Shown: positions 384 to 27,922 of the stretch, in pieces
Layout: each line of letters starts with the position of its first letter
How positions within the stretch are numbered: the first letter of the stretch is position 1
Assembly: GCA_002887195.1 (NCBI GenBank)
Contig: PJAB01000317.1
Span: 1-29,821 of the forward strand
Direction of reading: 5' to 3'
Length of the DNA: 29,821 nucleotides
Source of the DNA: Chrysochromulina parva
Taxonomy: Eukaryota > Haptophyta > Prymnesiales > Chrysochromulinaceae
Notes under the pieces: generated by a model
What the model saw: only the letters and a program-made list of their open reading frames with translations
Told to the model about the DNA's origin: nothing
The model's database searches: none
Position numbers and translations under genes: made by a program

Positions 384-3300
384 ATGTCGTCGACGCTGAA
401 TGCCATCGACATGACGCCCGACGAGACGCCGGCTGCTGAGAAGCCGACGATGACTGCGCCTGACCCCGAGGAGGCGGCGGCCAAGAAGCCGACGAAGCGC
501 TCCAACTCCTTCTCGCGCCGAGCCAACAGGGGTGGCAAGAAGAAGGAGGAGGATGCGATGCCAAACGCGGGTGGTGTCGGCGGGGGCGCCGCGGTGGCGC
601 CGGCCGCCGGCGGGGGCGCTGCTGCGGTCGAAGACACTGGCTACGTGGACGAGGAGGCGGTGGCAGCGAAGCCGTCGTTCAAGCTCGAGAAGCAGGGCAA
701 CCCACTCACGGACGCGATCCAAAAGGAGGCGGTCGAGCTCTTCGAGGCAGGCGCGTATGACGACGCGGGCGAGAAGTTCTACTACCTCGCCGAGGCCGCC
801 CACCAGGCAGGTGACAGGCAACAGGAGTGCACCGCGCTTCAGAACATGGGGACATCGATGGTGATGCTCGGGTCACTCTTCGAGGCGTCGCGCTGCTACG
901 ATTCGGCGCTGCGGCTGGCCGAGACGCCCGCCGCCGAGATCGAGGTCCTTGAGAGCCTCGTCTGGTGCCATTCGGAGCTGGGCGCCCTCGACAAGGCGGT
1001 GGCCGCTCTCCATCAGCTGCGGATGGTGCGCTGACGGCCGCTGATGACCGCTGATGGCCGCTGATGGCCGCTGATGACCGCTGATGGCCGCTGATGGCCG
1101 CTGTGACCGCTGATGGCCGCTGATGGCCGCTGACGACCGCTGATGACCGCTGATGCCCACCGCTGATAGCCACCGCAGATGTGCGCCGCTCTGAGCCATC
1201 GGTGATGGCCATCGCAATTTGCCATGGGCACTGATGCGCACTGATGGGCACTGATGGGCACTGATGGGCACTGATGGGCACTGATGGGCACTGATGGGCA
1301 CTGATGGGCACTGATGGGCACTGATTGCGCCTGTGCTCGGGAACACCTCGAGCCGCCTGTAGATGAGGCCGTGATCTCGGACTTAATCTCGCCTGATTGC
1401 GCCTGTGTCCTCAGGTGCATGAGTCCCTCGAGCCGCCTGATGATGAGGCCGTGATCTCGGACTTAATCTCGGAGGCGAGCTGCCGCGCGCAGCTCGAGCA
1501 GCACGAGGAGGCGAAGGAGGTACGTACGTACCCGGGACGACGCCCGCGCGCCATCTCGAGCGTCCAAGATGGTCTCTCCGATGTCTCTTGATCTCCCTAA
1601 TTAGGACATATCCCTATTAGGACATATCCCTATTAGGACATATCCCTAATTAGGACATCGTGCGTCGGACTGCCGCTGAGCACTTCTGGATTGCCTCCCT
1701 CATCAGGTGCTCGAGGCCGCGCTGCAGCGGGCGATGGAGAAGCTGCCCGAGGGCGCAGTCCGCTCCAAATGGCAAGCACGCGCCTCGTCCGATCTCGCGC
1801 AGGTGATGATGATGCCCTTGATTGTGATGGATGATGGCCCTTGATTGCGCCTCGTCCGATCTCGCGCAGGTGATGATGCCCTTGATTGCGATGGATGATG
1901 GCCCTTGATTGCGACGGATGAGTGCTGATGCTTCCCGTGCTTGCGCCTGAGTGCGTCTGAGAGCGCCTGAGTGCGCCTGAGTGCGCCTGAGTGCGCCTGA
2001 GTGTGCGTGCGTGTGCCCACGAGTGTAGGTGAAGCTGCAGCTCGGCGACGCACATGGCGCTCTCGCGCTGTACCGAGCGGTACTCGACCTCGCGCACGCG
2101 ACCAACGACGGCGAGCGCGAGATGCGAGCTCACGGCAATCTCAGCTTCGTCTACCGGCTGCTCGGCGACCTCGAGCCGGCAGTGAGCCACCAGCAGCAGG
2201 CGGTGGAGCAGGCGGCGGCTCTGAAGGACGTTTTCATGGAAGGACGTGGCAACCTTGATCTGGCGATGACTCTCCGCCTCCGGTAATGAGTCCCTAATGA
2301 GTCCCTGATGAGTCCCTAATGAGTCCCTAATAGCAACCTTGATCTGGCGATGACTCTCCGCCTCCGGTGCGCATGGCTGGGGTGGAGCTCTTTCCCACGC
2401 CAGCAGCCCCTCCCCCGCCCCGCCCCCGCCCCGCCCCCGTCCCTCTCCTTCTCTGGCTCTCTGGCTCTCCCCTCTCCACCTCTCCAATCTCCCCAAATCT
2501 CACCTAATTTCCCCTTATCTCCCCTTATCTCCCCTCATCTCCCCTTATCTCCCAATCTCGCAGCGGCTCGCTCGACGAGGCGGTCGTCGCGCTGCAGCGG
2601 GCGCTCGCGATCGCCTCGGAGCTCGACGATGACGAAGCCAAGGGCGAGTGCAACACGCGCCTCGGAGCCGTCTTCGTGCAGCAAAAGGAGTGGTCCAAGG
2701 CCCTCCCGTGCCTCCTCCAGTCCGCCAGTGTCTGGACCGTCCTGGCTGAGTCGCTGCATGAGACGCACAAGGAGCGCGTCGTCGCGGGCGAGGCGGGCGG
2801 TGAGTGCCACTGATGGCGCTGGACTGCGCTGATGACCACTGATGACCGCTGATGAGCGCTGATGACCACTAATGACCACTGATGACCACTGATGACCACT
2901 AATGACCACTGATTGCAGGTGACGACCCCGAGAGCCTCCAATTCTGATGACCACTAATGACCACTAATGACCACTGATTGCAGGTGACGACCCCGAGAGC
3001 CTCCAATTCTTCGACGAGCACGCAGACACCACCTCGCTCCTCGTGGCCAGCCTGATCGCGCTGCAGCCGCAGCATTCTCTGCCCTCGCTTCTCGCTGCCG
3101 AGGCGGGCAGGTGCGTGACCCTGCGACACCTGCTCGCGGACAACCCGATCCGCAATCTCGGCGCGACCTCGACCGAATCTCGCGTCAAGTATGGCGATAA
3201 CGTCTCGGACGCCCTCGAGGAGGTCGAGGAGGACGCGCCCGGCACGGCGCCCGGCGCCGCGCCGTCTGTGCCGGCGGGCCCGGCGCTCATCTCGACGCCT

Positions 3301-5395
3301 GAGCACGTGTCGGAGGCGCTCTCGCATCTCGGCGAGATCTCGGGCAAGAGTGGCGCCAAGTCGCCGGGCATGTGCCTGTACTATGCGTTGCTCGAGGCGG
3401 ACCGCGATGCCACGCCGCCCAAGACGACGCCCAAGCCGCCGCCCGGTGCCCAGGGCGACGCGTCCATGCAGCGCCTCGCTGAGGCCGATGCCGCCGAGGC
3501 GGAGCCGGAGCCGCCTGATGACGAGATCATCTTGTGGGTGCTCGACGGCGAGGGCAAGTGCGTGCTGCTCCACCGGACCCCGGCTCGTGCGAAGGATGGG
3601 CGCTCGTTCTCATCGCTCCTCTCCGACTACCTGACCAAAGTCTCTCTCTCCTTTGAGGGGCATCTGGTACGCGGACCGCCCGAATGAGCCCCGAATGAGC
3701 CCATAATGAGCCCCTGATGAGTCCCTAATGAGCCCCGAATGAGCCCCGAATGAGTTCCTAATGAGTTCCTAATGAGTCCCGAATGAGTCCCTGAGCGCCC
3801 TGCTCCCTTCCCCACAGGTACGTGGACCGCCGGAGAAGGAGGAGGTGCACGGCGCGCGCAAGGAAGAGCTCGCCGAGCGAGGGCAAGGCGCCGAGCCCGA
3901 CCCGTATGCCCCGGGTGTGAATGTCACTTCTGAGCTCACGATGATGTCGGACTTGCTCCTCGCGCCCGCGGCGGCGCTCCTGACGCCCGAGACGCCCCTG
4001 TTGATCATCACGCACCTTTCCCTCCAATGGGTGCCCTTTTGCGCCCTGCCCTTGCCTGCGGCGCACCCGGCGTCGGCGACTCCCTCGAGCGTTCGCACAG
4101 GCGCGTGCCTTGTCGACGTGCATCCGATCAGTTTCGCACCCTCCCTGACGGTCTACCGACATCTGGTGCATCGGGCCGCGCTGGCAGCGGCCGACACAGC
4201 GCCAGCGCCCCTTGACGAATCTCTCGTCGTCGGTGGGGCAATCCCTTCGCCTTCGTACGAGCTGCCCGATCTGCCGGTACGTCACTCTCTGATGGCCTCT
4301 CTGATGGCCTCCCTGACAGCACCTGCTGAGATTGGGCTGAGATTGGGCTGAGATTCGGCTGAGATTGGCTGAGATAAGGCTGAGATAAGGCTGAGATAAG
4401 GCTGATGGTGTGCGCGCAGGGCGCTCTGGTTGAGGCGACCAAAGTGGCGACTCTTCTCGGGATGGCGCCCGATACGGCGCTCACGGGCGAGGAGGCGACC
4501 GGGTACGCGGTGGGCTTGGCTCTCGGCGGCCGTCGCCGCCTCGTGCACATCGCGAGCCACGCGCGCCCCCGGGTGCTTGCGCTCACGCCAATGGTCGGTG
4601 AGGCCTCCAAGACGATGGCCAACGCCGCGCTCGAGGCGCAGCAGGTGGCGCGGGAGATGATGATGGCCGTGGAGCGCGGAGAACTCAGCGCTGACTCTGA
4701 GGAGGTGTGAATGCGCCCCTCGAGCCTGATGGCCTCTCTTTGATGACCTCTCTCTGATGGCCTCTCTGATGGCCTCTCTTTGATGGCCTCTCTCTGATGG
4801 CCTCTCTCTGATGGCCTCTCTCTGATGGCCTTTCCATTTGGCGCAGGTGAGGGGACAGCTCGAGCGCTGTGTGCTGATGACCACTGATGACCACTGATGA
4901 CCACTGATGACCAATGATTGCGTCCCTCATCAGGTGAAGGGACAGCTTGAGGAGGCCGAACAGATCATGGCCGAGGCCGCGCCCGCGACGGCGCTGGTGG
5001 AGCGCGCGCAGCAGTTGGGGCCGTTGGGCGACGGGTTGATCGTGGTGGATGCGCTCGCGGATCGGCCCCTCAAGGGATTCCCCACAGTCGTCCTGGCCGG
5101 CTCGCACTCGGGCTATGGCTCCATCTCCCACGACGGCGCCCTCGGCCTCCCGCGCGCGCTCCTGTGCGCGGGGGCGCGCGCCGTCGTGGGCGCGATGCAC
5201 GAGGTCGCCGACGCGCCCGCGACGACGCTCTTCGCCGCCTTCTACGAGGCGCTGACGAAGCCCGGCCCGCCGATCTCGCAGGCCGAGGCGCTGCGCCAGG
5301 CGATGCTCGCCACGCGCCAGGCGGACGGCGGCAAGTGGGCCCACCCCGCCTTTTGGGCCGGATTCGCCCTCATCGGCGCGGCGAAAGGCCTCTGA
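384..5395 (+). CDS. TPR-CHAT domain protein (nine exons, ~1073 aa), catalytic Cys replaced by Ser
   Basis: Inferred exons are 384-1025, 1415-1519, 1707-1802, 2029-2282, 2564-2799, 2984-3666, 3818-4276, 4420-4704 and 4934-5395; all joins keep frame and restore TPR helices. The N terminus (~90 aa) is low-complexity and rich in Lys, Ala and Gly. Tetratricopeptide repeats fill about residues 100-430 (exons 1-5), for example the AVELFEAGAYDDAGEKFYYL and GDAHGALALYRAVLDLA helices. Exons 6-9 carry a CHAT (caspase-HetF-associated) domain. The dyad His lies in VHIASHA (codon 4558-4560, ~residue 872). The motif VVLAGSHSG (~residues 972-980) aligns with the family's VLSAC-x-TG and has Ser (codon 5102-5104) where the nucleophilic Cys is expected. 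The downstream GARAVVGAMHEV and HPAFWAGFALIGA motifs fit CHAT strands. CHAT proteins are caspase-like peptidases; TPRs usually sense partners. This one may be a pseudo-protease or use Ser. The substrate is unknown. Confidence 0.85.
1026..1414 (+). repeat. Intron 1 of TPR-CHAT gene: two 10-bp minisatellites plus a broken copy of exon 2
   Basis: Donor GTGCGC, acceptor TCCTCAG, phase 0. Bases ~1030-1160 are about a dozen copies of CTGATGRCCG-like units. Bases ~1231-1325 are about ten copies of CTGATGGGCA. Each unit contains CTGAT, a match to the CTRAY branch-point consensus. Bases ~1348-1390 are a near copy of the start of exon 2 with an internal TAG. The intron's first four bases (GTGC) repeat the first four of exon 2. 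Confidence 0.85.
1520..1706 (+). repeat. Intron 2 of TPR-CHAT gene with CCCTAWTTAGGACATAT-type repeats
   Basis: Donor GTACGTACGTAC, phase 0. Bases ~1593-1660 hold four copies of a 17-18 bp unit containing CCCTAATTAGGACAT or CCCTATTAGGACAT. The intron ends in GATTGCCTCCCTCATCAG (1689-1706), an 18-bp terminus that recurs in introns of other genes in this window. Confidence 0.85.
1803..2028 (+). repeat. Intron 3 of TPR-CHAT gene with CCTTGATTGCG and CCTGAGTGCG repeats
   Basis: Donor GTGATG, acceptor GTGTAG, phase 0. The first half alternates CCCTTGATTGYG and GATGATGCC units and contains a second copy of the exon 3 end (CGCCTCGTCCGATCTCGCGC at ~1850-1869, original at ~1781-1800) followed by its own AG|GTGATGATG donor. 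The second half is a run of GCCTGAGTGC 10-mers (1945-2000). The intron start GTGA equals the exon 4 start GTGA. Confidence 0.85.
2283..2563 (+). repeat. Intron 4 of TPR-CHAT gene with duplicated donor region and CT-rich tract
   Basis: Donor GTAATG at phase 2, acceptor TCTCGCAG. The intron opens with CCCTAATGAGT units (CTAAT inside each). Bases 2333-2368 are an exact copy of exon 4's last 34 bases plus GT (2249-2284). The remainder is C-rich (CCCCGCCCC) followed by a CTCCCCTTATCT array, which gives a strong polypyrimidine tract. Confidence 0.85.
2334..2366 (+). other. Potential in-frame 33-nt cassette mini-exon inside intron 4
   Basis: Flanked by AG (TAATAG, 2327-2332; sequence TAG|C with G at 2333) and a GT donor at 2367, this stretch is an exact copy of the end of exon 4. 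The exact exon edge on the 5' side is ambiguous by one base. If taken as 33 nt it keeps phase 2 to phase 2 and would repeat NLDLAMTLRLR in the protein. It may equally be non-functional; the sequence alone cannot decide. Confidence 0.35.
2800..2983 (+). repeat. Intron 5 of TPR-CHAT gene with duplicated acceptor plus exon start
   Basis: Donor GTGAGT at phase 1. The body is CTGATGACCA/CTAATGACCA 10-mers. A 65-bp tandem duplication places the acceptor and the first 27 bases of exon 6 twice (2911-2945 and 2976-3010, 35 bp identical). The first copy runs into TGA if used as exon, so the second acceptor (2981-2983) is the productive one. Confidence 0.88.
3667..3817 (+). repeat. Intron 6 of TPR-CHAT gene, its start a copy of exon 7's start
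   Basis: The first 17 bases of the intron (3667-3683) match the first 17 of exon 7 (3818-3834) at 15 positions, so both read V-R-G-P-P-E. The rest is ATGAGCCCC/ATGAGTCCCTA units with CTAAT or CTGAT cores, then a C/T-rich acceptor ending CCCCACAG. Phase 0. Confidence 0.88.
4277..4419 (+). repeat. Intron 7 of TPR-CHAT gene with CTGATGGCCTC and CTGAGATTGGG units
   Basis: Donor GTACGT, acceptor GCGCGCAG, phase 0. The first third has CTCTGATGGCCT units. The rest is CTGAGATTGGG, CTGAGATTCGG and CTGAGATAAGG 10-11 mers. Confidence 0.85.
4705..4933 (+). repeat. Intron 8 of TPR-CHAT gene with CTCTGATGGCCT array and a copy of exon 9's start
   Basis: Donor GTGTGA (weak), phase 0. The array (4727-4831) has about nine copies of CTCTCTGATGGC. 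A second acceptor at 4844-4846 is followed by 4847-4870, a diverged copy of the first 18 bases of exon 9 plus six. This could be a 24-nt in-frame mini-exon (V-R-G-Q-L-E-R-C) with a GTGCTG donor at 4871. CTGATGACCA 10-mers follow, and the intron ends in GATTGCGTCCCTCATCAG. Confidence 0.82.
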
Positions 5396-6358: not shown

Positions 6359-9300
6359 ATGCTCGTCCGCCGTCGGTCTTTCCAGCTCATAGGTGGGCAC
6401 GCCGCCCTACGCCAGGCGATCCCACTTGCCACCTGCCGCCTCCTGTCGACGAAAGTGGACCAGAAGTCGGGCGTGAACACACGCCATCCGGGCGGCGTCC
6501 CCGATTGGATCCACCTCTGGACTCCGGCACACTTCTACAAGGGTGGATACGGTCTGATCGGGCTCACCGCAACGTCCGCGGTGCTAACATACGTGCACGA
6601 GATGAATGTGCTGGTGCCACCGCTCTTGGCTGCCTTGACCGCCGGCTACTGGTCGCTCGGCTTGAGCGATTTGCAGCAGAAGCATCAGGCGCTGCGGCGC
6701 AACTTCCCGGTGCTCATCCACATTCGGTACTTTCTCGAGTCGATCCGGCCCGAGATCCAGCAGTACCTGATCGAGAGCGACAACATCGCCGCGCCCTTCT
6801 CGCGGGAGGCGCGCACGCTCGTGTACAACCGCTCCAAGGGCCTACCCGACACGACCGCCTTCGGCACCAAGCGCAATGTGTACCTCGAGGGGCATGAGTG
6901 GGCGGCCCACTCGATGTTCCCCAAGCACCTCGACCCCGCGGTGGCCGGGCGCGTGACCATTGGAGGCAAGCTGTGCAAGCAGCCGTACTCGGCCTCGCTC
7001 TTCAACGTGTCGGCGATGAGCTACGGCGCACTCTCGGGCAACGCCGTCTCGGCTCTCAATCTGGGAGCCCAGATCGCCGGGTGCTATCACAACACAGGCG
7101 AGGGCGGCATCTCGCGCTTCCACAAGCTCGGCGGCGACATCGTGTGGAACGTGGGCACTGGCTACTTTGCATGCGGGTACACGGACAAGGACGGAGTGCG
7201 TCGATGGCTTCGGAGGGCGACTGAGATGGGGCCTGATGACCCTGATTGCGCCGGATGGCCTTTTTGTGCGCTTGCGTGCGCTTGCGTGCGCTTGCGTGCG
7301 CTTGCGTGCGCTTGCGTGCGCTTGCGTGCACCCGAGTGCGCCTGAGTGCGCTTTAGCGACCCTGCTGGAGCCTGATTGCGTGCAGGTGCGCCGATTCGAC
7401 GAGAAGCTCTTCAAAGCGAACGCGGCGCTCCCCCAAGTGAAGATGATCGAGCTCAAGCTCTCGCAGGTGATTGCCATTGATTGCCATGGGCTGCCATGGG
7501 TTGCCATGGGTTGCCATGGATGGCCATTTATAACCATTGATGGCCATTGATGAACTCCCCAAATGAGTCCCTAATGAGTCCTAATGAGTCCCTAATGAGT
7601 CCCTAATGAGTCCCTAATGAGTCCCTAACCTCTCTTGCAGGGAGCCAAGCCAGGCCATGGCGGCCTGCTGACGGCGGCCAAGATCACGGCTGTGATCGCC
7701 GAGGCGCGCGGGCTAGGCGAGCCACCCTATTCGGACTGCAACTCGCCCGCGAGCCACTCGGCGTTCAATTCGGTCTTTGGATGCCTCCAATTCATCGCCA
7801 AGGTGCATGCGATGGATGCGATGGATGGGCTCTGATTGCGGTGGATTGCGAGTGATCGCGCATGATTGCGATCGATAGCGAGTGATTGCGTCGCACCTCC
7901 CTCATTAGGGACTAATTAGGGACTCATTAGTGATTGCGTCGCACCTCCCTCGCATGGGCCTCGGGTGGCCCTCGGATGGCCCTCGGATGGCTGATGAGGA
8001 TGGCTGATGACCTCTGATGACCACTGATGACCTCTGATGACCTCTGATGACCTCTGATGGCCTCTGAGGATGGCTGCACTCCATGCGCTGTGACCAGCTG
8101 CGCGAGCTCTCCGGAGGCAAGCCCGTCGGCATGAAGATGTGCGTGGGGCAGCCCGCGGAGGTGGCCGCACTAGTGCATGCCATGCTGGACACCGGCATCA
8201 CGCCGGACTTCATCACGATCGATGGCGCCGAGGGCGGCACCGGCGCCGCGCCTCTAGAGTTCCAAAACTCCATCGGGTTCCCCCTCGCCGAAGGCCTGCG
8301 TCTCGTCAACTCGCTGCTGACTGGCGCGGGGCTTCGGAAGGAAGTGAAGCTGATCGCCAGTGGCAAGGTGTACGACGGCTTCAGCCTTGTGCGCACGCTC
8401 GCGCACGGCGCCGACGTGGTGAACGCCGCGCGGGCCTTCATGTTTGGCCTCGGGTGCATCCAGGCTCTTCAGTGCAACAGGTGATTCGCATGGGGTGGCA
8501 CGGGGTGACATGGAGTGGCACGGATATTGGCTTTCCACTGACACTCCTTCCCACCCTGCCCCAGCAACAAGTGCCCGACCGGCATCACTACTCAGGACCC
8601 TCGTCTCGAGTCTGGTCTCGACGTCGCAAGCAAGAGTGAGCGGGTGAGGGGAGCGACGAGAGACGACGAGCGACGACGCTGACTGATGGCCATTCATGAC
8701 GAGCGACGACGCTGACTGATGGCCATTGATGACGAGCGACGACGCTGACTGATGACCATTGATGACGAGTGACGACGCTGACTGATTGCCGTTGATGATC
8801 CACTGCTTGCCGCGGTTGCTTGACGACTGTTCTTGACGACGGATTGGCTCCCTCATCAGGCGGATTGCCTCCCTCATCAGGCGGATTGCCTCCCTCATCA
8901 GGCGGATTGCCTCCCTCATCAGGCGGGGGGGGGCTCCCTCATCGTGTGGATTGCCTCCCTCATCATGTGATTGCCTCCCTCATCCACCGATGGCCTCCCT
9001 CATCAGGTGGCCGAGCTCAAGATGACCTCTGATTGCCTCTTGATTGCCTCTTGATTGCCTCTGATTGCCTCTGATGACCTCGGAATGCCTCCCTCATAAG
9101 GTGGCCAACCTGCATCGCGCCACCGTCAAGGCCGCGCTCGAGATTGTGGGAGCTCTGGGCGTTGAGAGCCCTTCCATGGTCTCGGGCAAGCACCTGTACC
9201 GACGCGACTCAGGCATGCGCTCACCCCAATCCTAACACTTTCCGTAGCCCTCATCCGGCGAGCACCTGGACTGCATGCATGCACTTTCCTAATCCGGCGA

Positions 9301-9624
9301 GCACCTGTACCGTCGTGCCTGCATGCATGCACTTTCCTAATCCGGCGAGCACCTGTACCTTCGTGACTGCATGCATGCTGGAAATCCCTCTGATGACCTC
9401 CGATGGCCTCTGAGGACCAGTGAGACCTCTGATGACCTCTGATTGCGCGCCCTCACGTCTCAGGCATGCACACGGTACCCTTTTCGAAGTTGCATTCGGA
9501 GAACTTCCCCGCGCTCGAGACACCAGGGGTGCTGCTCGATAGCGCGATGCCCGGGGTGCCCGAGCAGCTCGCCCTTTGGTGGAAGCAGGGCGGCGAGCTC
9601 TACCGCTCGACGAAAGGTGTGTGA
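6359..9624 (+). CDS. FMN-binding glutamate-synthase-family protein (seven exons, ~604 aa)
   Basis: Exons are 6359-7195, 7386-7466, 7641-7802, 8098-8480, 8565-8643, 9101-9212 and 9464-9624. I chose ATG 6359 because the in-frame GTG at 6347 is not a eukaryotic start. The family resembles the FMN-binding synthase domain of ferredoxin-dependent GOGAT and bacterial YerD-type proteins. Diagnostic stretches are PYSASLFNVSAMSYGALSGN, NTGEGGISRFH, GAKPGHGG, TIDGAEGGTGAAPLEF and IASGKV. Three cysteines, C480-x5-C486-x4-C491 (CIQALQCNSNKCP), match the [3Fe-4S] ligand spacing of glutamate synthase. There is no glutaminase domain. The N terminus is Arg-rich (MLVRRRSFQL...) and could be a mitochondrial presequence. 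Two hydrophobic segments (~64-80, 84-101) suggest membrane anchoring. The physiological reaction of such short homologues is uncertain. Splicing of exons 6-7 uses a probable GC donor. Confidence 0.9.
7196..7385 (+). repeat. Intron 1 of glutamate-synthase-like gene with GCTTGCGTGC array
   Basis: The intron start GTGCGTCGATGG matches exon 2's start GTGCGCCGATTC at 9 of 12 positions, so both begin V-R-R. The array at ~7268-7330 is six copies of a 10-bp TGCGTGCGCT unit. CCTGATTGCG units flank it on each side. Phase 0. Confidence 0.85.
7467..7640 (+). repeat. Intron 2 of glutamate-synthase-like gene with TTGCCATGGG and GAGTCCCTAAT arrays
   Basis: Donor GTGATT, acceptor CTCTTGCAG, phase 0. Two unrelated arrays sit side by side: TTGCCATGGG/TGGCCATTGA (~7470-7550) and ATGAGTCCCTA 10-11 mers (~7562-7630). 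The second array uses the same unit as introns 4 and 6 of the neighbouring TPR-CHAT gene. Confidence 0.85.
7803..8097 (+). repeat. Intron 3 of glutamate-synthase-like gene with several repeat types
   Basis: Donor GTGCAT, acceptor TGACCAG, phase 0. It contains GATTGCG-rich units, two copies of GATTGCGTCGCACCTCCCTC, CTCATTAGGGA, three GGCCCTCGGATGG-like units and a CCTCTGATGAC array (~8008-8065). Exon 4 resumes at LRELSGGKPVG, which is conserved in the family. Confidence 0.82.
8644..9100 (+). repeat. Intron 5 of glutamate-synthase-like gene, the longest intron (457 bp)
   Basis: Donor GTGAGG, phase 0. Bases ~8653-8790 hold four ~33-bp GACGAGCGACGACGCTGACTGATGGCCATT-type repeats (broken here: GACGAGCGACGACG / CTGACTGATGG). 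Bases ~8840-9006 hold repeated CGGATTGCCTCCCTCATCAG units, i.e. tandem copies of the common intron 3' terminus, each a potential acceptor. At 9003-9020 one of these AGs is followed by GTGGCCGAGCTCAAG, resembling exon 6's start GTGGCCAACCTGCAT. Confidence 0.82.
9213..9463 (+). repeat. Intron 6 of glutamate-synthase-like gene: probable GC-AG intron with exon-derived repeats
   Basis: The reading frame requires joining ...CGCGACTCAG to GCATGCACACGG; the intron then starts GCATGC and ends CTCAG, phase 1. The sequence CTCAGGCATGC is repeated at both junctions (9209-9219, 9460-9470). Three degenerate units at ~9255-9380 repeat the 3' part of exon 6 (GAGCACCTGTACC ... TGCATGC), each with CTTTCCTAATCCGG between them. 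Confidence 0.75.
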
Positions 9625-10940
9625 GGCGCTTGCAGGGCATCAGACGGGGGCGGGGGGAGCTTGCAGCGCTCAGAACAGCGCGAATCAGCTATACCTTTGA
9701 GGCGGGAGGGTCGCGACACGAGGGGCGCTGTCTTGGGGGCGCTGTCATGGGCGCGTTGTCTTGGGCGCTTTGTCTTGGGCGCGCTGTCTTGGTCGCGCTG
9801 TCTTGGGCGGGAGAGGGTCGCGACACGAGGGCGCGCTTTGCTCCAAACCAAAGGATGGCGTCAGAGAGGCGACGCACTGCCGAGACTGATGGACGGACGG
9901 ACGGACGAGACGGACGGAGAGTTGTTGGATGCAGGTGCCACCGTGGCAACGACGGAACGAGCCGCGGACCCTAATTAGGAACGAGCCGCGGACGCGAGCT
10001 CCCAGCTTTGACGCGAGCGGCCAAGCGCAAGACGATCGTGTACTGTAGATGATCTCTGCTACACGACAGTGCAATGCTCAATGCTCAATGGGCGCAACAC
10101 GGACTGAGGGTGCGGGCCGGGCGTTTTCTGGCATTCCAAGCGACACACTCGGCGCGCGGACTTAGTACGACTCGCGGTCTGTGTTTCACATGGAGACGCG
10201 TGCGTGTGTGCCCTGTGGCCGTGTGCCCGGTGACCGTGTGCGAGCGCTCGCGGGGCTCGCGTTGGCCGTTCGTGCGCCGCGCGCGCGCGCGCGCCTGCTC
10301 TCTTTGCTTAGTTTGGTAACTTAGTTTACACACTGAGTACAACACGTCTTTTGTGTTTTGAGGAGAACAGGAGATTAGACACATATTAGGCACACACAGA
10401 CGGACAGTCGACAGTGAGACCCCGCAGTACACTTCCGCCGTCGCTAGCTCGCTAATACCGTACACAAGGCCAACTCCGCGCCAGAACGTTCTGGTCGTTT
10501 TCGATCGACGTTTTCGATGCACGACTACGAGCCGCGGCAAAGTAGATGACCTTCTCCAACCTTCTCCTTGCCGATCTTGGCAAGCAAATGAACTCCAGGT
10601 CGAAAGTATGACGAAATTTAGCACACTCGACAAAATGTGCTGCAGCTTTTTAGGAGCGCTGACCTGTAGGTCCGCGGGGCGGAGTCTTGCGTCTTGCGAT
10701 GAGGCGCGATGCCGTCCCCTCCGCAGGACTGTGGCCTCCGTCTGGTTGCTGTCCTTGTGTTGTAGTCTTGCTGTACCCGCGCTGAAGCAGCGCGCTGGAG
10801 TAGCGCTGTTCTACGTCTGGTTGTAGTCAGGTTGTAGTCCTGCAGCCATTCTGGTTGTGGTTGCAATTAGACCCCGACCCGAGAAGTTGGAGCTTGGAGC
10901 ACCGGGTGAGCGGGCTGGTACGCACAGCCACCGAGCCAGC
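9625..10940. other. Gene-poor region with short repeats
   Basis: No gene recognised. Bases ~9724-9810 hold an array of GCGCTGTCTTGGGC-like units bracketed by a 16-bp direct repeat GGGTCGCGACACGAGG (9708-9723, 9815-9830). GGAACGAGCCGCGGAC occurs twice (9954-9969, 9978-9993) around CCTAATTA. A (GC)n run lies at ~10278-10292. Bases ~10300-10640 are less GC-rich; reading frames there show no recognisable domain. Several TCTGGTTGTAGTC-like copies lie at ~10740-10860. Confidence 0.55.
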
Positions 10941-10944
10941 ACTC

Positions 10945-11727: not shown

Positions 11728-14700
11728 CTAGGGAAGGTCCATCGCGAGTTCTGGCAAGGGGGTGGGAAATGCAAGGAGCTTGGTCAGGACCGCGTTGACC
11801 TTCAGCGCCTCCGCGATCGCGATGGCTCCCTCCAGACCGATGTAGTTGTACTCGAGGTCGAGCTTGGTCAGGACCGCGTTGACCTTCAGTGCCTCCGCGA
11901 TTGCGATGGCTCCCTCCGGACCGATGTTGTTGCGGTTGAGCGACAACTCGGTCACGACCGCATTGACCTTCAGCGCCTCCGCGATCGCGATGGCTCCCTC
12001 TGGACCGATGTTGTTGTTGCTGAGCCACAACTCGGTCACGACCGCGTTGACCGTCAGCGCCTCCGCGATCGCGATGGCACCCTCCGCACCAATCTGGTTC
12101 AGGCCCAGGTCCAGGGTGGTCATCACCGCGTTGACCTTCAGCGCCTCCGTGATCACCTTGGCACCGTCGTCGCCGATGTTGTTGGCCCCGAGCCTCAGCT
12201 CGGTCAGGACCGCGTTGACCTTCAGCGCCTCCGCGATCGCGATGGCTCCCTCCGGACCAATGTTGTTGGTGTTGAGGTTTAGCTTGGTCAGGACCGCGTT
12301 GACCTTCAGCGCCTCCACGATCGCAATGGCTCCCTCCGGACCGATGTTGTTACTCCAGAGGTTTAGCTCGGTCAGGACCGCGTTGACCTTCAGCGCCTCC
12401 GCGATCGCCTTGGCACCCTCGTCGCCAATCTTGTTCCAACTCAACTCCAGGTTGGTCAGGACCTCGTTGACCTTCAGCGCCTCAGCGATTGCCTTGGCAC
12501 CCTCCGCACCGATGTCGTTGTTGTCCAGGCTCAGGAAGGTCAAGACCGCATTGACCTTCAGCGCCTCCGCGATCGCCTTGGCACCATCAACGCCGATCTT
12601 GTTGTACTCCAGGCGTAGGCAGGTCAGGACCACCGCGTTGACCTTCAGCGCCTCCGCGATCGCGATGGCACCCTCATCCCCGATGGAGTTGTTGAACAAG
12701 TCCAGGTTGGTCAGGACCGGCATGACGGCCAAAGCCCCAGCCACCTCTGCCGCACCTGTCGCGCCGAGATCATTCCAACTCAAGTCTAGGTGCGAGACCT
12801 TCTCAGCCAGCAGCAGCACGGCGCGCAGGGCCGTCGGCCCTTTCGCGAGTTGATGATTGAGCTTCAGCGACTCGCCCACACCGGCTGCGCGCAGCAGGCC
12901 GGCGCGGAACGCGGCGCCCTGCGCCTCGCCGATACGCAGCACATTCGCCCACCACGCCGTCCACTGCCACGGCAGCGCGCCAGCGGGCAGCGGCGCGCCA
13001 GCACAGAGCACACATGCGGTATGATACTCCTGGAAGGACAAGTGGGACGCCTGCAGGTGGAGCGGATTGGCCTGCAGCAGGCTCAGCAGCGGCAGGCGGC
13101 CGCGCCCCACGCGCTCGCGCACGACATCGAGCGCCTCACGCAACTCGACGGTCAGCGCATCGTGCGCCTCGCACAGCTTTCGGTGGTAGGCCGCGTCAAA
13201 ATCGGCCCTGCGCATGCCCGACGACGCGAGGTCCTCGGCTCCGAGTCCGTCGGCAGTGGTGCCGTCCTCAAACTTGACCTCGTATTCACGATAGCCATTG
13301 CCGGCTTTGCTGACCTCGCCACGCCGGCCTGCGTGCGCCCCATGCCGCACCTCTGCATACTCGCCCACGACTGGCTCGCCTGCATGTGCTGGCCAGCGGA
13401 TCGCAGCAAGGCGGTCGGCGGCGCTCGCGTGCAGCCCCACCGCCGCCGCAAGCATCTGATCCTCTTCGATGATCCGCCGGCCTGCCACGTGCGCCTCAAA
13501 GAAGATGGCCTGGACGATGCTCCTCACGTGCTCCACCCCCGCTGCGCCCCGCTCCTTGCGCTCCGCCCCCTCGAGCATCGCGCGCGATGCGGCCGCGTAG
13601 AGCTCCGCAATGTTGCGCGGCAGCGCGCCTCTCGCCTCGTACAGCGAGATCACCATGCTCAGCATCTGTGCGCGCGCGAAACAAGGGGGGGGCAAGGAGA
13701 GAGTGGAGGTGAGACGGTGCGACGCGGCGCGGCTGTGCGCGGGCGCTGCTGCTGCCGTGTACATACCAGTGGATTGCTCGTTACGAGCTCATTGTGCTCG
13801 TCGCGTGGCGCGGTCGCCGCAATCTCTCACGCCACAGCGCCTCGCCGAGCGCCCTTCCCACGCGCCGCTCGACAACGATGTGCTGCTGGGTCTCGTCGAG
13901 TGGCCGCAGCTCGAGCGCCAGAAAGTGCTCCTGAAAGCACGTCCTGTCGAGCCCATCGGGGCGCGACGTGACCAGCAGCACGTGTCCCTGTGGCGCGAGC
14001 ACCTCCGTCACGTGCCGCTCGATGGCCGTGCGCATTCGGCCGCCCTCGTCCATGCCATCGAGCAGCAGCAGCGCGCGTCGCGCGCGCATCGCGCCGCTCA
14101 GCATGCGGTACACATCTGCGTCGGCGCCGTGCACGCAGCGCAGGTATGCGTCGACCCAGTTCCACGCGGTGGCAAAGGTGTCTCGATGCTCCTCGAGGAG
14201 CAGCAGCCGCTGCAGCTGCTGCACGCGCACGAGCACGGGGACAAGCCGTCGATCCGGGTCCTCAAGCACGTGTGTCACGAGCTGCGAGATCAGGCACGTC
14301 TTGCCTGCTGCCGGCGGGCCGGTGAGCAGCACGCACCCACGCTTCTCGGCGACGCCCTCTTCGCATCGACCACGGTGGAGGGCGAGCAGCGTGGCCGCAA
14401 GGGCATCCACCTCGCCAAAGCGCTCCTTGCCCTCACCCGTGGCGACGGCGAGGGGCACGCACTGCTCACGCACGTCGAGTCGCTTGCCCGAGAGAGCGTC
14501 GACGATTGCGGCATGTGCCGTGCGCAGCGTGCGCTCATACTGTCGTCGCGCCGCGTCGTGGTCGTCTGCGGGCAGCTCGCGCAACCCATGATTCCACGGG
14601 TGGAGCGCCACCTGCTGTGCACGCGAGTCGTCGTCGAGCCAGACCAGGCGGTGGGTGCCACCACCGTCGGCGCCCTCGACGCGCGCGTCGCGCCATCGAC

Positions 14701-18930: not shown

Positions 18931-21900
18931 ATGCTCGCGCACAAGTTCCCTGACCCGTACGTCGACATCCTCAAGCACTTCGCCTCCAGCGGCTTCGCCG
19001 ACGCGGAGAAGCAGGGCGACGTCTCAGAGGCCATCGACAAGACGATCGGCAAAAAGTGCGTCGCCATCCGTGGCAAGACGGCGGCAGCCAACTACCTCGC
19101 GTTGCCCAAGCCCGGCCCCATCGGGCTCGGACTGAGCGGCGCCTATCTCTACCTCGAGCTCTGCCTGCTTCCCGGCGCCGCCTTCACGCTGCACTTTGAC
19201 CTTCTGACCGACGCCAAGTTTGTCGTTCGCGTGACGCTCTCGAGCCGCTTCACGACGATCAAGCAGGTGGGAACGGTGGTGCAGATCCCGGGCGCGCAGC
19301 TCGCGGCCACCGCGGGCCGCTGGACCGTCCTCGCCGTCGACCTCGCCGCGCTCACCGCCGCCGTCGTGGCGTCGAGCAAGGGGCGGTTCGCAGCGCTCAA
19401 AGGCCTCGTGGCGTGCTGCTCGATGAACCTGCGCGCAGCGTTCACGTCGGACCTCGTGTACCAGTTCGAGACGCTGCCGCGCGAGTTTGCGATCCCGCTC
19501 CCCGCGGGCAAGGCCTTCGGCGACCTCTTCGAGTGGCGATGGCTCCCTGCGCCGCCGGCCGTCGCGCCGTTCTCGGCGGCCGATCTGGCTGTCTCTGGCG
19601 CCCCTCTGAGCGCACCACCGACGCGTGCTCTCAAGAGTGCCGGTCTTGGTGCGCCCGCCGGCGTGAGCCCGCGCACCGAGCCGCGCAGCAGCGCCGCCGC
19701 CGACGTCGACGAGGTCACACGGCGCCGTCGGCAGCGCTCGGGCGCCGCGCCTCGCGCCCTCTTCCCCCCACCCCCCAAGCCGACAGCCCCGGCCGACCCG
19801 ACGGTGCTCGCGCTGAGCCGCGTGCTGGGCTACTCGGGCGAGCGGAACGGGCTGCTCGTGTGGATGAAGGACGGGCGTCGCGTGCTCTACGCGGCTGCCT
19901 CATTGCTCATCCTGCAGGAATTGGACACGGGCGCCCAGCGGTTCCTGATCGGCCATACGGCCGACGTGTGCGCGCTCTCGGCGGCCTCGACGTCGCCCCT
20001 GATCGCGTCAGCGCAGGTGGGCGCCTTGCCGATCTTCTTGCATGCTTGCGGGCGAGGAGCAGCCTGCACGTGCTCACCACGACGCCCCCTCCACTTCCCC
20101 ACAGGTGGGCGCCTTGCCGATCATCCGGCTGTGGGACAGCAACACGTGCACGCCACTCGCGATGCTGCAGCAGCACGCGGCGGACCTGCACACCCTCTCC
20201 CTCTCGTCGGACGGTGCTCTGCTCGCCGCTGTGGGGAAGGACGCGCGCGGCCGGCAGCTGCTCGCCGTCTGGGACGTGACGCAGGCGGCGGCGCCGCTGC
20301 CCTCGTGCCCGCTGCTCGATGCCAAGGTGTCGTCCACCCACGTGCGCGTCATCCAATGGGTGCCTCCCGAGCCGATGGACGTCGCGCACGCCAAGGCCGA
20401 GGGGACGCCCCCCGCCGAGGGCCATCAGCTCGTCGCGTGCGGCTACGAGAATGTGCGCTTCTGGCGGCTGCGCCGCGGCAAGCTGCACTGCTGCGGCATC
20501 CCTCTGCAGCACGAGGCGGGCACGCTCTTTCTGTGCCTCGCCCTCGACGACCCCGCCCAACACGGCGGCGGCGCCGAACGCCAAAAGCAACGCCGCCTTC
20601 TCGTCGGCGGCTCCTCTGGCCACCTCTTCGTCATCGACCCGACGAAGCGCACGCTCGAGGTGCGATCTCGTTGAGATCTCGTTGAGATCTCGCTGAGGGC
20701 CGAGGATACGGCCGATGAATGCCGCTGAGGACAGATGATTGCCTCTGAGGTGATGATTGCCTTCTAAGGACCGATGATTGCCTTCTGAGGACCGATGATT
20801 GCCGCAGAGTGCCCCACCGCCACCGTCTTGCGTCGGTTCGCCCTTCCGATGGGCTCGGCGCGTGATGGCCTCCCTCATCACTGACTGGGCGCGTGATGGC
20901 CTCCCTCATCAGGCTGTGCACGCTCTCCACGAGGGCGCCGCCATCCACGCCGTCCACCTCTCCGCCGGCTTCGCGGTCACGGGCGCCGAGGATCGTCTGC
21001 TACGCGTGTGGCCGCTCGACTTTTCGGCGCACTTTCTCGAGACTGAGCACGAAGGGAGCGTAACGGCCATCGACGCGTCGCCCGATGGGTTGAAGCTCCT
21101 CATCGGGACTGCCTCAGGCACGATCGGGATGCTCGACGTGCCCACGCTCAAGCATGCAACCATCGTGCGCTCGCACACGGACATCATCTATGGGCTCGCG
21201 CTCGACCCGCATAACCGCGAGTTCGTCACCGCCTCCTGCGACGGCTCGATCCGCGTATGGGAGCTCGACGGCACGCAGGCGCAGCTGGTCGAGTTCGAGC
21301 TGCCCGAAGGGTGCTCGCGCTGTGTCGCGTACCACCCGACAGAGTACGTCATCGCCGCCGGCTTCGACGACGGATCGGTGCGCGTCTTTGACATCGCGTC
21401 CACGTCGCTGCTCGAGGAGTACACGCAGCACGCGGGGAAGGTCATGGACCTCGCCTACTCCGCCGACGGCGAGCGGCTCTATTCAGCCGGCACGGACTGC
21501 GGCCTCACCGCGTACGATGTGGTGCACTCGTACCAGCCCTCGCGCGCGTTTTCAGCCAAGGCGTTCCCGGACGCGAAGCCGTGCCTCGCCCTCACCTCTG
21601 ACGACAAGCTGCTGGTCGCTGGGGGGCTTCAGAATAAGGCGGTGCTCACCCTCGACGCGAGCACGCTCACAGTCCTCAATACCTTCTCCCTCTCGGCGAA
21701 CGCGACGGCGGTGGCCATGGGGCCAGGCCGCACGCTCTTCCTGGCGACGCTCGAGGGGACCCTGCTTTGCGTGCCGCTGACCGCAGGTGGGCTGGCGGCC
21801 TCCGAAGCGGCCGTGCTGCCTCACGCGCACACGGCGCCCATCGACGCGCTCGCCCTGGCACGCTCGGGTGCACACGTGGCCACCGGCGGCCATGACAAGA

Positions 21901-22279: not shown

Positions 22280-22324
<45 letters not shown>

Positions 22325-23856
22325 TGAGGACGCGGCGGGCGCGGCGGCGCCCAAGACGGCGCTCGCGGACGTGGGGCCGACGGCGGACGACTTTGAAGCG
22401 CTTCGTCAACGGCTGCGTGCTCTCGGGACGGCCGAGGCGGGGTACCTGATGGCTGGTGCGGAGGCGGGCCGCTCGGTGACGCTGTCCGACCCGGTCGTGG
22501 CGGCGGCGGTGGCGACCAAGCAGCAGCAGCAGGAGGAGGACCCGCAGGAGGAGGACGAGGAGGAGGAGGAGGAGGACGAGGACGAGGACGAGGGCGAGGA
22601 TGAGAGCCCGTTCCCTCGAAAGCGCTACCGGCTTCGCGTCGTGTACACCGACGACGCCCCCGTCGAGGCAGTGACCGACGCAGCCCTCGCCGAGGCCATG
22701 GGAGCTCGCGAGCTCGATGCGATCTCGGCGCATCCCGGTGGACGCTCCGCCCAATCAGCGGCCGAGGCCGTTACATGGGGTTCGTCAGTCGCCGCGTCGG
22801 TGGCAGAGGCGCGAGGGCTCGCGGCGGAGCACGAGGGCGACTCTCTCGCGACCCATGTGGCCTCCGGCCTCGAGCTGCTCCGACTGATCGGTTTCTCGAC
22901 GCACGCGCATGACCACGTCGTGTGGCAACCGAGCACGGCCACTCTCATCTACGCGAGCGGCGACACCCTCGTCGTCGACAGCCTCGCGCCCGGCACGGCG
23001 CCCGTCCACCTGACGGGCGGATCTGGCGAGATCTCGACGCTGGCGCTCTCCAACGACGGGCGCTTCGCCGCCGTGGGCGCGGGCAGCGACGCGCCGCTCT
23101 GCGTGTACGACCTGCATCCTCGCGCGGCAGATCTCGATCTCGCCGCGAGCTCCGAGAAGGCGAGCGCCGTGCTGCGCATGCGGCTGCCCGGCCACGAGGG
23201 CGGCGTGCAGTGCCTTGCCTTTCTAGGGCAGGCGGCGCTCGCGTCGCTCGGGTTGCACGACGGGCAGCTGCGCGTGCACAGCGTCATCTCAGGCGCGCTG
23301 CTCCTGAGCGCCTCCACGCCACCCGACCTGCACTGCCTCGCCGTCTCCGCCGATGGGCTTCAGATCTCCGCCGCGGGCAAGGGCGGCCTGTACACGTGGC
23401 GGGTAGCGACGCAGCCCGCGGCCTCACTACCCGCCGCGGGCGGCGACGAGGACGAGGGCGAGGACGAGCCGTCCGAGGAGCCTCGCGCTCGGCCGATGTT
23501 GCTGCCGCTCTCGCCCCGTCTCCTCCCCGCCGACGTCGAGGGCAACCCGGTGCACGCGACTGCCATGCTGCACCTGAGCCCCACCCTGAGTCTCACAGGC
23601 GACACCGAGGGCACCCTGTGCCTGTGGGGGCCGCCTCCCGCCGCCGCCTCGACGAGCGCCGCCTTTGCGTCGGCCGCCGCTTCGGCGCCGATTGGCGTCT
23701 TCACACTCTCGTCGCTCTTTGACGAAATCGACCTGCTGCACGCGTCGGTGGCGGTGGCGCCCGTCGGCGCCTCCGACTTCGCCTCCTGGCACTTGGTCGT
23801 CGGGGGCGCCTCGGCCACGCACGCGGTCTGCCGCTTCCGTCTCACCATCCCTCCTC

Positions 23857-23901
<45 letters not shown>

Positions 23902-25199: not shown

Positions 25200-26403
25200 G
25201 TGTGACTGTGAATGGCGATTGGCCCCGCGTGGTGCATCTTGCCCCGAGGCGCCGTGCCGGGCGCCTTGCCGGGCGATCAGCCAGACGCAGAGGGGCGCCG
25301 TGCCGGGCGCCTTGCCGGGCGATCAGCCAGACGCAGAGGGGCGCCGTGCCGGGCGCCTTGCCGTGCGATCAGCCAGACGCAGAGGGGCGCCGTGCCGGGC
25401 GCCTTGCCGTGCGATCAGCCAGACGCAGAGGGGCTTCCTGGCCGCCGGCTGTGGGGTTTGTGACAGCAGGGGCCCCTTGGGGAGGGTGGGGCAGGTCATT
25501 CGGCAGGTCTTGACCCAAGGCGACCGTCCCAACGGCCAGAACAGCCACACCATTCAGGCGCGCGCGAGCAAGCGCGCAGCAGCATGTGGGGGCGAATGAC
25601 GGAGCAGCGGGCGTGGCAGAAGTGAGGGCACAGCATCAGTGGGCATACACCATGCGGTCACGGATGGTGCGACTCGCACGCGCTCGTGTGGGCCGAGGAC
25701 GGGCGGTCCCTCGCATGCTAAAGAGGCGATGACAGAGGCAGATCCCGGGCCAGTGACCACTTTCCCAAATGACTGATAGGCCAAGCCAATGACGCCGGGC
25801 CAATGACACTGGCGGCTCGGCTGCGAGGCCTATGAAACCATGTTGAATGTGTAACCCCCGGTTCCACCTCATTTGTGAGTTCTTGAAGGTCGCATCAAGG
25901 CGTACGACTCGTCCGGTCGTCCCGGCGGAGAAATTTCCGATGATATGATATGTGTCGTGTCCAATTATTATACCGCTCGCGTGTGACCGGTGTACTTTCG
26001 TGCCGAAAGTAAATTCAGTTCGAGCGACGAGCCCCAAACACGTTCCGTCCGCCGGCCGCTAAATTCTGTTGCTTCGCTTCATTCGCGGCACGCCAGGGGT
26101 AAAGCGTACGTCTCCTGACTCCTCCCACAGGCCACACACTTGGACCCCTGACCGAAGATATGAAGCTTGGGAGGCACATGCACCATGCACTGTAAAGAGG
26201 ACGAACATGTTGAGATTGAAAAGAGAGAAATAGGCGCTAAAGCGGCGCAGAGGCTGCGCAAGAGCCAAGACGCGAACAAGAGCCCGCAGCAAGCATGCTG
26301 AGGAGCCGGGTGGAGCCGCAGCGCGCCCAGGAGCCCAACACGGCGCACCAATGAGCACAAGACGAGGCGCCCAGCAGCGCCCAGCAGCAAGGAGCCCAGC
26401 TGC
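25200..26403. repeat. Intergenic region with a 46-bp tandem array
   Basis: Bases 25251-25434 are four copies of a 46-bp unit (GCCGTGCCGGGCGCCTTG followed by CCGKGCGATCAGCCAGACGC and AGAGGGGC). The units differ at one G/T position (copies 1-2 against 3-4). They begin ~50 bp after the WDR90-like stop codon, so the array may lie in its 3' UTR. From ~25640 the GC content falls; a perfect hairpin TACTTTC-GTGCC-GAAAGTA lies at 25993-26011. Reading frames here show no recognisable domain. The end nearest 26403 is the 3' flank of CFAP96. Confidence 0.65.
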
Positions 26404-27922
26404 TCACGCGCCACACCCGTTGTTGCCCGGCACGTGGAACATGATCGAGGGCGTCGGCGCGCCGGACGAGGGGCCGGTCGGCTTGAAGGGTGCTCCCAGG
26501 ATGGGATGCTTGGCGAACTCGTCGTGGGCCTTTTTGATCTTGAGAGTGTCCGGATCGTCCATGTACCTGATGAGGGAGGCCATCAGTGGTCATCAGAGTC
26601 AATCAGGGGTCGTCCATGTGTGTAATTGCGAGCACCACAGGGCGACGGCACTCAGGCGATCGGTGACTAGCCGTTAGCCGTTCGCCGTTCGCCGTTCGCC
26701 GTTCGCCGTTAGCGATCCGAGGGCCACTCGAGTGCCCCTCCGTCGCGGTACATTGCGAGGCACTCATCGGGCAGGTCGCGAGGTCCTAAATAGGTCCGAA
26801 TCGGGCGCGGCGTACACAGGGAATTTGCTGAAGGTTGCATGCGGGCCCGACTTGGGCGCCTTGGCGGGGAAGAAGGGTGCGTCTGAGACGGGCTTGCCGT
26901 AGGGCGCCGACTTGGGGCGCTCGGGGAGCCTCGGGTTCTCTGTGAAGATCTCGGGCGCCGCCACTCGCTTCTTGCCGTCGAAAAAGTCGAGCGCGTGGCA
27001 CCTGCGTGGCACGTGGAGATTCGTCATGATATTTGTCATGAGAGCGAGGCACCGGACATCCAGAACGTGCGATCCAGAACGGGACATCCAGAACGGGACA
27101 TCCAGAACGGGACATCCAGAACGGGAGATCTAGAACGGGAGTTCCGGAACGTGAGATCCGGGATGGGAGATCCGGAGCGCGACTCAGGCGCGTAGATCAG
27201 GCGTACATGGACACCAACGGTGGCCGCCCTTGAAGCGATTCAATGTGCTTCCTATGGTACTCCTGTTCTTTCTCGTGTGCCATTCCCCAAGGATCCTTCT
27301 CCCACTTGTACTCGCGACCGCCGTACTTGCCCAAACCAGACTCGTCCTTGAGTGGCCCCGGCCCGAAGATGCACCCAGGCGTCGACGCGCCGTACCCCTT
27401 CTTGCCCGGCATCGTCATCATCTGCTTCATCTCGTGTATGGTCCCTGCCGGTACCTTGCCTTTCTCGTCGATGGGTTTGCCGTTGAGTATGCCATCGTAG
27501 CCGTGAGGGAGCTTGGGCCCAATGCAACCCCAGTACGCGCCCACGCCCGAGTTCATCTTCGGCTTGCCCGGGTTCTTGAAGCCGTTTGTCGTCAGATCCC
27601 GCTTCCGCTCCTCCATGTTGACTTTTTGGAGCAGTTTGAACTCCTCGACGAATTTGATGCCCTCGTAGAGCGGCTTCACCGGTGGTCGCTTACCGTAGCG
27701 GCCTTCATTCCAATTTCCACCCGTCTGCCCTTTCTTCGATCGATTCGTGAACATCTGCGTGCCCTTGTCCCGGTCGAGAATCTGCCGGCTGTCATCGTAA
27801 GGCTCGCCGACGCCGTGGAACGAGGGCGTCGAGAAGGTGCCAAATTTTTTGAGCGTTGGGCGGCCATCCGCATACAGCTGCGGTGGAGGCGGACCGTCCC
27901 CGCCATGGCGCGCCCGTCCCAT
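26404..27922 (-). CDS. CFAP96: CFAP96-like cilia- and flagella-associated protein (three exons, ~354 aa)
   Basis: Exons (minus strand) are 27922-27207, 27001-26816 and 26566-26404. The joins are phase 2 and restore VSM-CHALDFFDG and KFPV-YMDDPDTLK. I start at ATG 27922 (MGRARHGGDGPPPP); the in-frame codon at 27937 is TTG. The protein is basic, Gly/Pro-rich and has no enzyme domain. It follows the CFAP96 (C4orf47/UPF0602) order: FGTFSTPSFHGVGEPY; NEGRYGKRPPVKPLYEGIKF; GVGAYWGCIGPKLPHG; TMPGKKGYGASTPGCIFG; EKEQEYHRKHIESLQGRPPL; then a C-terminal SGAPTPSIMFHVPG that fits the family's SRPVESIMTLNV end. The human protein is about 309 aa. CFAP96 is associated with ciliary or centrosomal microtubules; its molecular role is poorly known. 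Confidence 0.85.
26567..26815 (-). repeat. Intron 2 of CFAP96-like gene with GCCGTTCGCC repeats
   Basis: On the minus strand the donor is GTACGCC and the end is GATGGCCTCCCTCATCAG, the same 18-bp terminus as plus-strand introns of the other genes. The intron contains a short array of GTTCGCC units (plus ~26670-26712). Intron start and next exon start share GTAC, followed by a looser similarity around GATTCGGAC / GATCCGGAC. Confidence 0.85.
27002..27206 (-). repeat. Intron 1 of CFAP96-like gene with CCAGAACGGGACAT repeats
   Basis: Plus-strand 27057-27165 holds a GGACATCCAGAACGG array (about 15 bp, seven to eight units decaying to GGAGATCTAGAACGG and GTGAGATCCGGA). The minus-strand acceptor CCACGCAG is preceded by GTGCCACGC and followed by GTGCCACGCG, so the exon start is duplicated directly across the splice site. 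Donor GTACGC, phase 2. Confidence 0.82.

Follow-up and report, generated by a model that had tools for sequence, protein, structure and literature searches.

The DNA analysed in this work (hereafter, the window) is the 29,821-nucleotide contig PJAB01000317.1 of the haptophyte Chrysochromulina parva, assembly GCA_002887195.1, and introns of four of its genes, located on both strands, end in one 18-bp sequence or a variant of it with 1-2 changed bases. We are highly confident that these elements are introners, that is, introns made by insertion of short mobile sequences. Homologous introns were indeed found at non-homologous positions in unrelated genes. The introner interpretation of the shared intron ends, proposed in the first-pass annotation, is supported and extended by the target-site duplications (TSDs) detected at the predicted donors and by a second family of the same design.

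The window was scanned on both strands for the 18-mer with up to 3 mismatches, and the expectation was obtained from 100 dinucleotide shuffles. Thirteen matches were found, compared with a mean of 0.02 in the shuffles, none of which reached 13. Matches without mismatch start at 1689, 8863, 8884 and 8905; those with one mismatch at 4916, 8842, 8949, 8989, 20895 and 26567 (the latter on the minus strand); and those with two at 8969, 9083 and 20864. The 18-mer is thus present at every coordinate given in the first-pass annotation, which described an acceptor shared by four genes: the five acceptor sites stand, while the tandem copies form a 21-bp array within a single intron, and one further copy (20864) is internal. 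Acceptor status is supported by gene models that splice to open frames with domain matches. The TPR-CHAT model (9 exons, 384-5395) yields an open frame with a Pfam CHAT match (4.8e-30), and the glutamate-synthase-like model (7 exons, 6359-9626) one with a Glu_synthase match (3.2e-71). The CFAP96-like protein, its exons joined by eye, matches its family across residues 24-339 (5.4e-29), and the WDR90-like exon that begins at 20913 stays open to a stop at 25200, with boundaries set by eye.

At the scale of the genome (45.07 Mb in 2,199 contigs, the window being contig C317), GATKGCCTCCCTCATCAG has 1,041 exact copies and its reversed control none; these are motif copies, not counted acceptors. 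The base that follows is G in 887 of the 1,041, and GT follows in 671, so that the possibility raised in the first-pass annotation that the motif might be equally common away from splice sites is not borne out. Some copies belong to minisatellite arrays inside introns, as in 8842-9006. Variants ending in CATCAA, CATCAC or CATCAT amount to 115 copies, and by eye the places listed for them are often close together, as in arrays; only 8 copies have the T at position -5 changed. Because such variants are rare, exact copies dominate and the 18-mer family is probably young. At 20 held-out sites, coding scores of the downstream sequence favoured the sense strand 17 times and were positive 15 times, the score calibration (297/300) having been made on the training genes themselves; the copies are mostly in sense orientation. 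A viral reservoir was not detected: the 18-mer has no exact match in IMG/VR.

As read from the sequence, the layout of these elements is exon, first TSD copy, variable body, GATTGCCTCCCTCATCAG, second TSD copy and exon. The donor sits at the start of the TSD, and the element supplies a CTGAT branch-point-like site, a pyrimidine tract and the CATCAG acceptor. Since the first TSD copy carries the donor, removal of this copy together with the element leaves a single copy of the target.

Duplications were scored in several ways. In 23 of the first 42 distinct sites, the 20 nt that follow the motif recur upstream with at least 17 matching positions; with the exon of another site the figure was 2 of 42, and with sequence 60 nt further down it was 7 of 42, matches that we put down to arrays. 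An in-register test of this first set gave scores of at least 9 at 24 of 42 sites, many of them array members. In the held-out set, an in-register upstream copy of the exon start was found at 12 of 20 sites with a score of at least 9 (11 of 380 mixed pairs), and at 10 of 20 with a score of at least 12 (2 of 380). The 12 duplications measure 9, 12, 18, 18, 19, 22, 24, 25, 26, 30, 31 and 58 bp. A control located 40 nt downstream produced one high score (31), the other 19 being 5 or less.

For a curated set, 88 CATCAG acceptor-like sites in the sampled DNA were reduced to 41 with a TSD score of at least 12, then to 21 by an array filter, and finally to 16 when window site 8880 and loci L017, L029, L054 and L063 were dropped by eye. 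The 16 TSDs are 14, 17, 18, 18, 18, 18, 19, 20, 22, 24, 24, 25, 26, 30, 31 and 33 bp long (median, 21 bp). Because the duplication is perfect in 10 of the 16, the process looks recent. The curated and held-out counts overlap by eight cases (within L051-L070), and another unit or intron adjoins or encloses five of the curated ones (window 4933, L012, L025, L056 and L061). Among the 21 filtered cases the TSD starts with GT in 13, GC in 5, and GA, CC and CT in one each. To judge from these alignments, the TSDs are direct evidence of insertion at the predicted donor. An intron-like insertion at L020 (1438-1518) has a TSD that starts with GA, implying a GA-AG intron.

A second family has GTGCTCACCACGGCGCC, which is common to WDR90-like intron 1 of the window and to other introns. 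This core often comes after GCATGCA or a similar sequence and is followed by a pyrimidine-rich stretch and CCCCACAG. With one free base, the core has 584 exact copies in the genome and none when reversed; in IMG/VR it occurs in 23 contigs, once in each, which we take for chance matches in GC-rich coding DNA. In the sampled DNA, 7 sites passed a filter for the core (3 mismatches at most), a pyrimidine-CACAG end and sufficient flank; copies lacking that end, such as two in L009, were left out. Six of the 7 sites have a TSD score of at least 12, compared with 0 of 42 mixed pairs, and the lengths are 12, 16, 18, 31, 33 and 36 bp. WDR90-like intron 1 itself opens with 18 bp that are identical to the exon start at 20105-20122. 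By eye, no relationship between the two families is apparent except for splicing signals, and judged by its layout the second is of the same design as the first. In another second-family copy, at about 2805 of L009, the duplicated piece is by eye the end of the upstream exon; there, the duplication would supply the acceptor and the insert the donor.

The two ends of the first-family elements were compared in the 21 filtered cases. Left alignment of the elements gives -0.10 to 0.67 bits per position, with 18 of 20 positions below 0.2; hence the left end is not conserved, and the similarity reaching both intron ends that was the rule in a published introner survey (PMC9860276) is not found here. 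Terminal inverted repeats (TIRs) were not detected either, with 5.81 matches of 12 as against 5.80 in mixed pairs. Right alignment gives 0.98-1.9 bits per position as far as -19, a uniformity that is largely by construction, as the exact 18-mer served to retrieve most loci and the pattern fixes the last 9-12 nt. The case for a fixed 3' end therefore lies in the genome-wide count of the 18-mer and in L061, where an insertion within an apparent existing intron (by eye) has an 18-bp TSD and ends exactly at CATCAG. Although a single case, L061 argues for an intrinsic right end.

Removal of the predicted introns was also examined at the level of the reading frame, in 9 loci of which some are arrays or lie near other introns. 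Exact excision gave 982 codons in L002, compared with 536-697 upon a shift of 1-2 nt; 822 in L012 (510-625 when shifted); and 672 in L020 (487-496). In two proteins the predicted junction falls inside a Pfam match: residue 75 of L068, in a U-box match (51-108), and residue 480 of L020, in a TPR match (450-523). The Mob_synth_C and Radical_SAM matches of L060 are both under the cut-off.

Long and variable TSDs, ragged left ends and absence of TIRs are marks of target-primed reverse transcription (TPRT). Retroposition of long and short interspersed nuclear elements (LINEs and SINEs) likewise involves variable long TSDs, a fixed 3' end and a ragged 5' end, with machinery that can act in trans. 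The TSDs found here (14-33 bp in the first family, 12-36 bp in the second) and the ragged left ends are alike, and the right end may be, while the product is a short spliceosomal intron that ends in CAG instead of poly(A). As a whole, introners with retroposition-like spread are the best explanation of the data, and we lean towards it with modest confidence. The mechanism that we prefer, TPRT of intron-derived RNA by a LINE endonuclease and reverse transcriptase acting in trans, has in our opinion an even chance of being correct. A nick in the target DNA would expose a primer, from which the LINE reverse transcriptase would copy an intron-derived RNA with a terminal CAG, starting at its 3' end. 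Synthesis would halt at variable points, which would make the left end ragged, and the long, variable duplication would result from a second nick at a distance of some 12-36 bp. The GT of the target at the start of the TSD (sometimes GC or GA) would then become the donor. After insertion, body and unit may grow to minisatellite arrays by slippage or unequal exchange.

Genes that might provide this machinery were detected. On contig C34 (41247-43766), an APE-type endonuclease lies upstream of a reverse transcriptase on the same strand, both within a 2,660-codon open frame; on contig C324 (5581-7396), the endonuclease is about 600 bp upstream of the reverse transcriptase and in a different frame. 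An endonuclease is thus paired with a reverse transcriptase at both places, with reverse transcriptase scores near the cut-off, and the two genes are apparently APE-type LINEs with long open frames. LINE-like genes are present in the genome; that LINEs move the introners is what we infer. The integrase profile had one match in the genome, under the cut-off, and none above.

The constant 18 nt span the putative branch point (CTGAT) to CAG. They would correspond to the lariat tail, a portion in which use as template and selection as 3' splice site would look the same here. A bolder proposal, which we find rather unlikely, is that excised spliceosomal introns themselves are the retroposons: where exon DNA is nicked, a LINE machinery would copy their 3' tail, from the branch point to CAG. 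New introns could then be seeded in trans by whatever intron RNA has a good tail. Since splicing signals are all that the two families visibly share, the machinery would in that case recognise a product of the spliceosome and not a transposon end. At L002 (1453-1518), the piece after the TSD begins, by eye, with (G)GTGATTGCC, like other donor starts found here, which gives the impression that an intron was inserted in full length.

Several observations weigh against retroposed introners, and they concern machinery, duplications and splicing. A search of the genome with the RVT_1 profile returned only 5 matches, all near the cut-off and none tied to the elements by sequence. An in-register TSD at score 9 is missing from 8 of the 20 held-out sites and from 18 of the 42 sites of the first set, and from 4 of the 5 motif-ending introns of the window, TPR-CHAT intron 8 (4916-4933) being the one that has it; the signal would be lost in older insertions. 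In the curated set, the requirement for a TSD score of at least 12 excludes shorter duplications and thus sets the lower limit of their length. Five of the 20 held-out sites lack a positive coding score downstream. In the frame test, gains from exact excision were slight in L001 (223 codons vs 199-203), L005 (55 vs 48-52) and L029 (270 vs 177-267) and absent in L021 (208 vs 204-212); exact excision was worse than shifted excision in L017 (76 vs 79-106) and L009 (314 vs 316-389), and the unspliced frame was longer in L005 (77 codons) and L017 (109 codons). Lastly, selection for splicing would be expected to yield a fixed right end as well. Because the right-end uniformity is largely by construction, we weighted retroposition slightly down and raised, as slightly, its main rival, repair of staggered breaks.

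In that alternative, which we regard as unlikely but worth serious consideration, nicks about 12-36 bp apart are filled in, the overhang is duplicated and a short filler is captured. The filler would come from a minisatellite or from the cDNA of an intron that had been excised, and inserts ending in CAG directly before a target GT would persist, as splicing removes them. This scheme agrees with long duplications of variable length and ragged filler, and a review lists break repair with short direct repeats among the routes of intron gain (PMC3443670). Furthermore, duplication-plus-filler without introner ends was seen by eye at C30 3150 and C150 6064, in 200 kb sampled regardless of the motif, which counts at the same time against retroposition. 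However, with 1,041 occurrences of the 18-mer and 584 of the second core, the filler is far from random, and in one case, L061, the insertion ends exactly at CATCAG where splicing has no obvious need of it.

Cut-and-paste transposition of a DNA element of MITE type is very improbable and largely refuted. It is the common mode reported for introners (PMC9860276), and MITEs often have direct repeats of 10-15 bp (PMC7789003), so that a TSD of about 14 bp would be compatible on its own; however, the duplications are not of fixed short length (14-33 and 12-36 bp), the left end is not conserved, and a TIR transposon was rejected in the absence of inverted repeats.

We give hardly more than marginal credit to local events without a mobile element, either tandem duplication of AGGT exon DNA or minisatellite growth in old introns. 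Such events are suggested by the whole-unit arrays of L029, L025, L017 and window 8840-9007, and by the duplicated exon edges of TPR-CHAT introns 1, 3, 4 and 5. Yet the body between the TSD copies does not reproduce the flanking exon, its end recurs around 1,000 times, and in all but one of the 16 curated cases the sequence before the first TSD copy is not the motif, cases after an exact CATCAG having been filtered out. Secondary duplication of an existing acceptor was likewise considered and rejected. It explains arrays together with some individual cases, namely L056 (CATCAA precedes it), L012 and L025 (first array units) and window 4847 (inside an intron), but leaves the others among the 16 unexplained. 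When 230 kb were scanned de novo for duplications with AG in front, the outcome was unspecific (28 AG vs 55 GC, 55 CG and 28 TG), because protein repeats dominate, and served for leads only.

Finally, an unusually long, fixed 3' splice consensus of the species with no copying at all can be dismissed: although the motif is by eye a full module of branch point, pyrimidine tract and AG, 12 of the 17 modelled window introns end otherwise, and the TSDs together with a second, unrelated fixed end rule it out.

The features of the window are listed in Table 1. A copy of the downstream exon start (score of at least 9) is present in 4 of the 17 modelled window introns, compared with 1 of 272 mixed pairs; the four are TPR-CHAT introns 5, 6 and 8 and WDR90-like intron 1. 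The second TSD copy of TPR-CHAT intron 8 is the exon start at 4934-4951, with 2 mismatches in 18 relative to the first, and the beginning of TPR-CHAT intron 6 copies the exon start at 3818 with 1 mismatch in 14.

Table 1. Introns, duplications and arrays of the window.
Feature	Positions	Strand	Sequence	Remarks
TPR-CHAT intron 2	1520..1706	+	acceptor GATTGCCTCCCTCATCAG at 1689-1706	gene model and motif; no TSD detected
TPR-CHAT intron 8	4705..4933	+	acceptor GATTGCGTCCCTCATCAG at 4916-4933	gene model and motif
First TSD copy within TPR-CHAT intron 8	4847..4864	+	GTGAGGGGACAGCTCGAG	
Glutamate-synthase-like intron 5	8644..9100	+	acceptor GAATGCCTCCCTCATAAG at 9083-9100	gene model and motif
Tandem array of the acceptor motif in glutamate-synthase-like intron 5	8840..9007	+		21-bp unit, 8.0 copies
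WDR90-like intron 2	20661..20912	+	acceptor GATGGCCTCCCTCATCAG at 20895-20912	donor by eye
CFAP96-like intron 2, acceptor	26567..26584	-	GATGGCCTCCCTCATCAG	motif; protein spliced by eye matches CFAP96-like
WDR90-like intron 1 (second family)	20017..20104	+	core GTGCTCACCACGACGCC; end CTTCCCCACAG	
TPR-CHAT intron 6	3667..3817	+	starts GTACGCGGACCGCC; ends CTTCCCCACAG	body is another minisatellite
TPR-CHAT intron 5	2800..2983	+		65-bp-period duplication that covers the intron's 3' end and extends 27 nt into the next exon
Exon-edge duplications of TPR-CHAT introns 1, 3, 4, 5	1346-1471, 1780-1878, 2249-2368, 2879-3010			

The exon-edge duplications of the TPR-CHAT gene, of 32-67 bp, affect the donor side as well as the acceptor side. 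Elsewhere in the window, an 84-bp (28-codon) repeat with about 10.7 copies occupies 11777-12685, by eye a minus-strand LRR-like coding stretch, and a 46-bp unit is repeated about 4 times with 99% matches at 25248-25434, just past the WDR90-like gene. The genome contains 58 matches to the chlorophyll a/b-binding family, hence that of a photosynthetic eukaryote.

Introners have been described in Micromonas, Aureococcus, Symbiodinium, Chrysochromulina and others as near-identical introns at unrelated positions (PMC9860276, PMC3879977), which is also the situation here. GC and GA donors are common to known introners and to the present elements, donors derived from the TSD are reported in Symbiodinium, and TIRs are also absent from some known families (PMC9860276). 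Differences are found in the duplications, variable and 14-33 bp long here as opposed to 3-9 bp for some earlier families, with figure examples of 4 and 8 bp (PMC9860276), and in the elements themselves, which are often shorter than 60 bp, of low complexity and without a conserved left end. In Amoebophrya, direct repeats also mark the exon/intron borders, but they measure 3-5 nt and are accompanied by inverted repeats of 8-20 nt inside the intron (PMC7789003), whereas here the direct repeats are long and inverted ones are lacking. Intron gain by break repair, as in Daphnia and other organisms, also leaves a duplicated target around the new intron (PMC3443670); the difference here is a recurrent identical element with about 1,000 exact ends.

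Described introners mostly look like DNA transposons (PMC9860276). The terms 'non-LTR' and 'reverse transcri' are absent from the main text of that paper, which does mention a proposed RNA-based spread by reverse splicing in fungi. Introners with TSDs of 12-36 bp are not described in the excerpts of PMC9860276, PMC7789003, PMC3443670, PMC11782384 and PMC3879977. The present elements are therefore best regarded as introners of a different kind, for which retroposition is a candidate step.

The survey in PMC9860276 required similarity at both intron ends, and low-complexity families were removed by hand; therefore, introns of the present kind would probably have been missed by it. Either practice would create a blind spot for such introns in other surveys as well. 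The origin of new introns is an old question, and C. parva brings to it two apparently unrelated families, in one genome, whose anatomy resembles that of retroposition.

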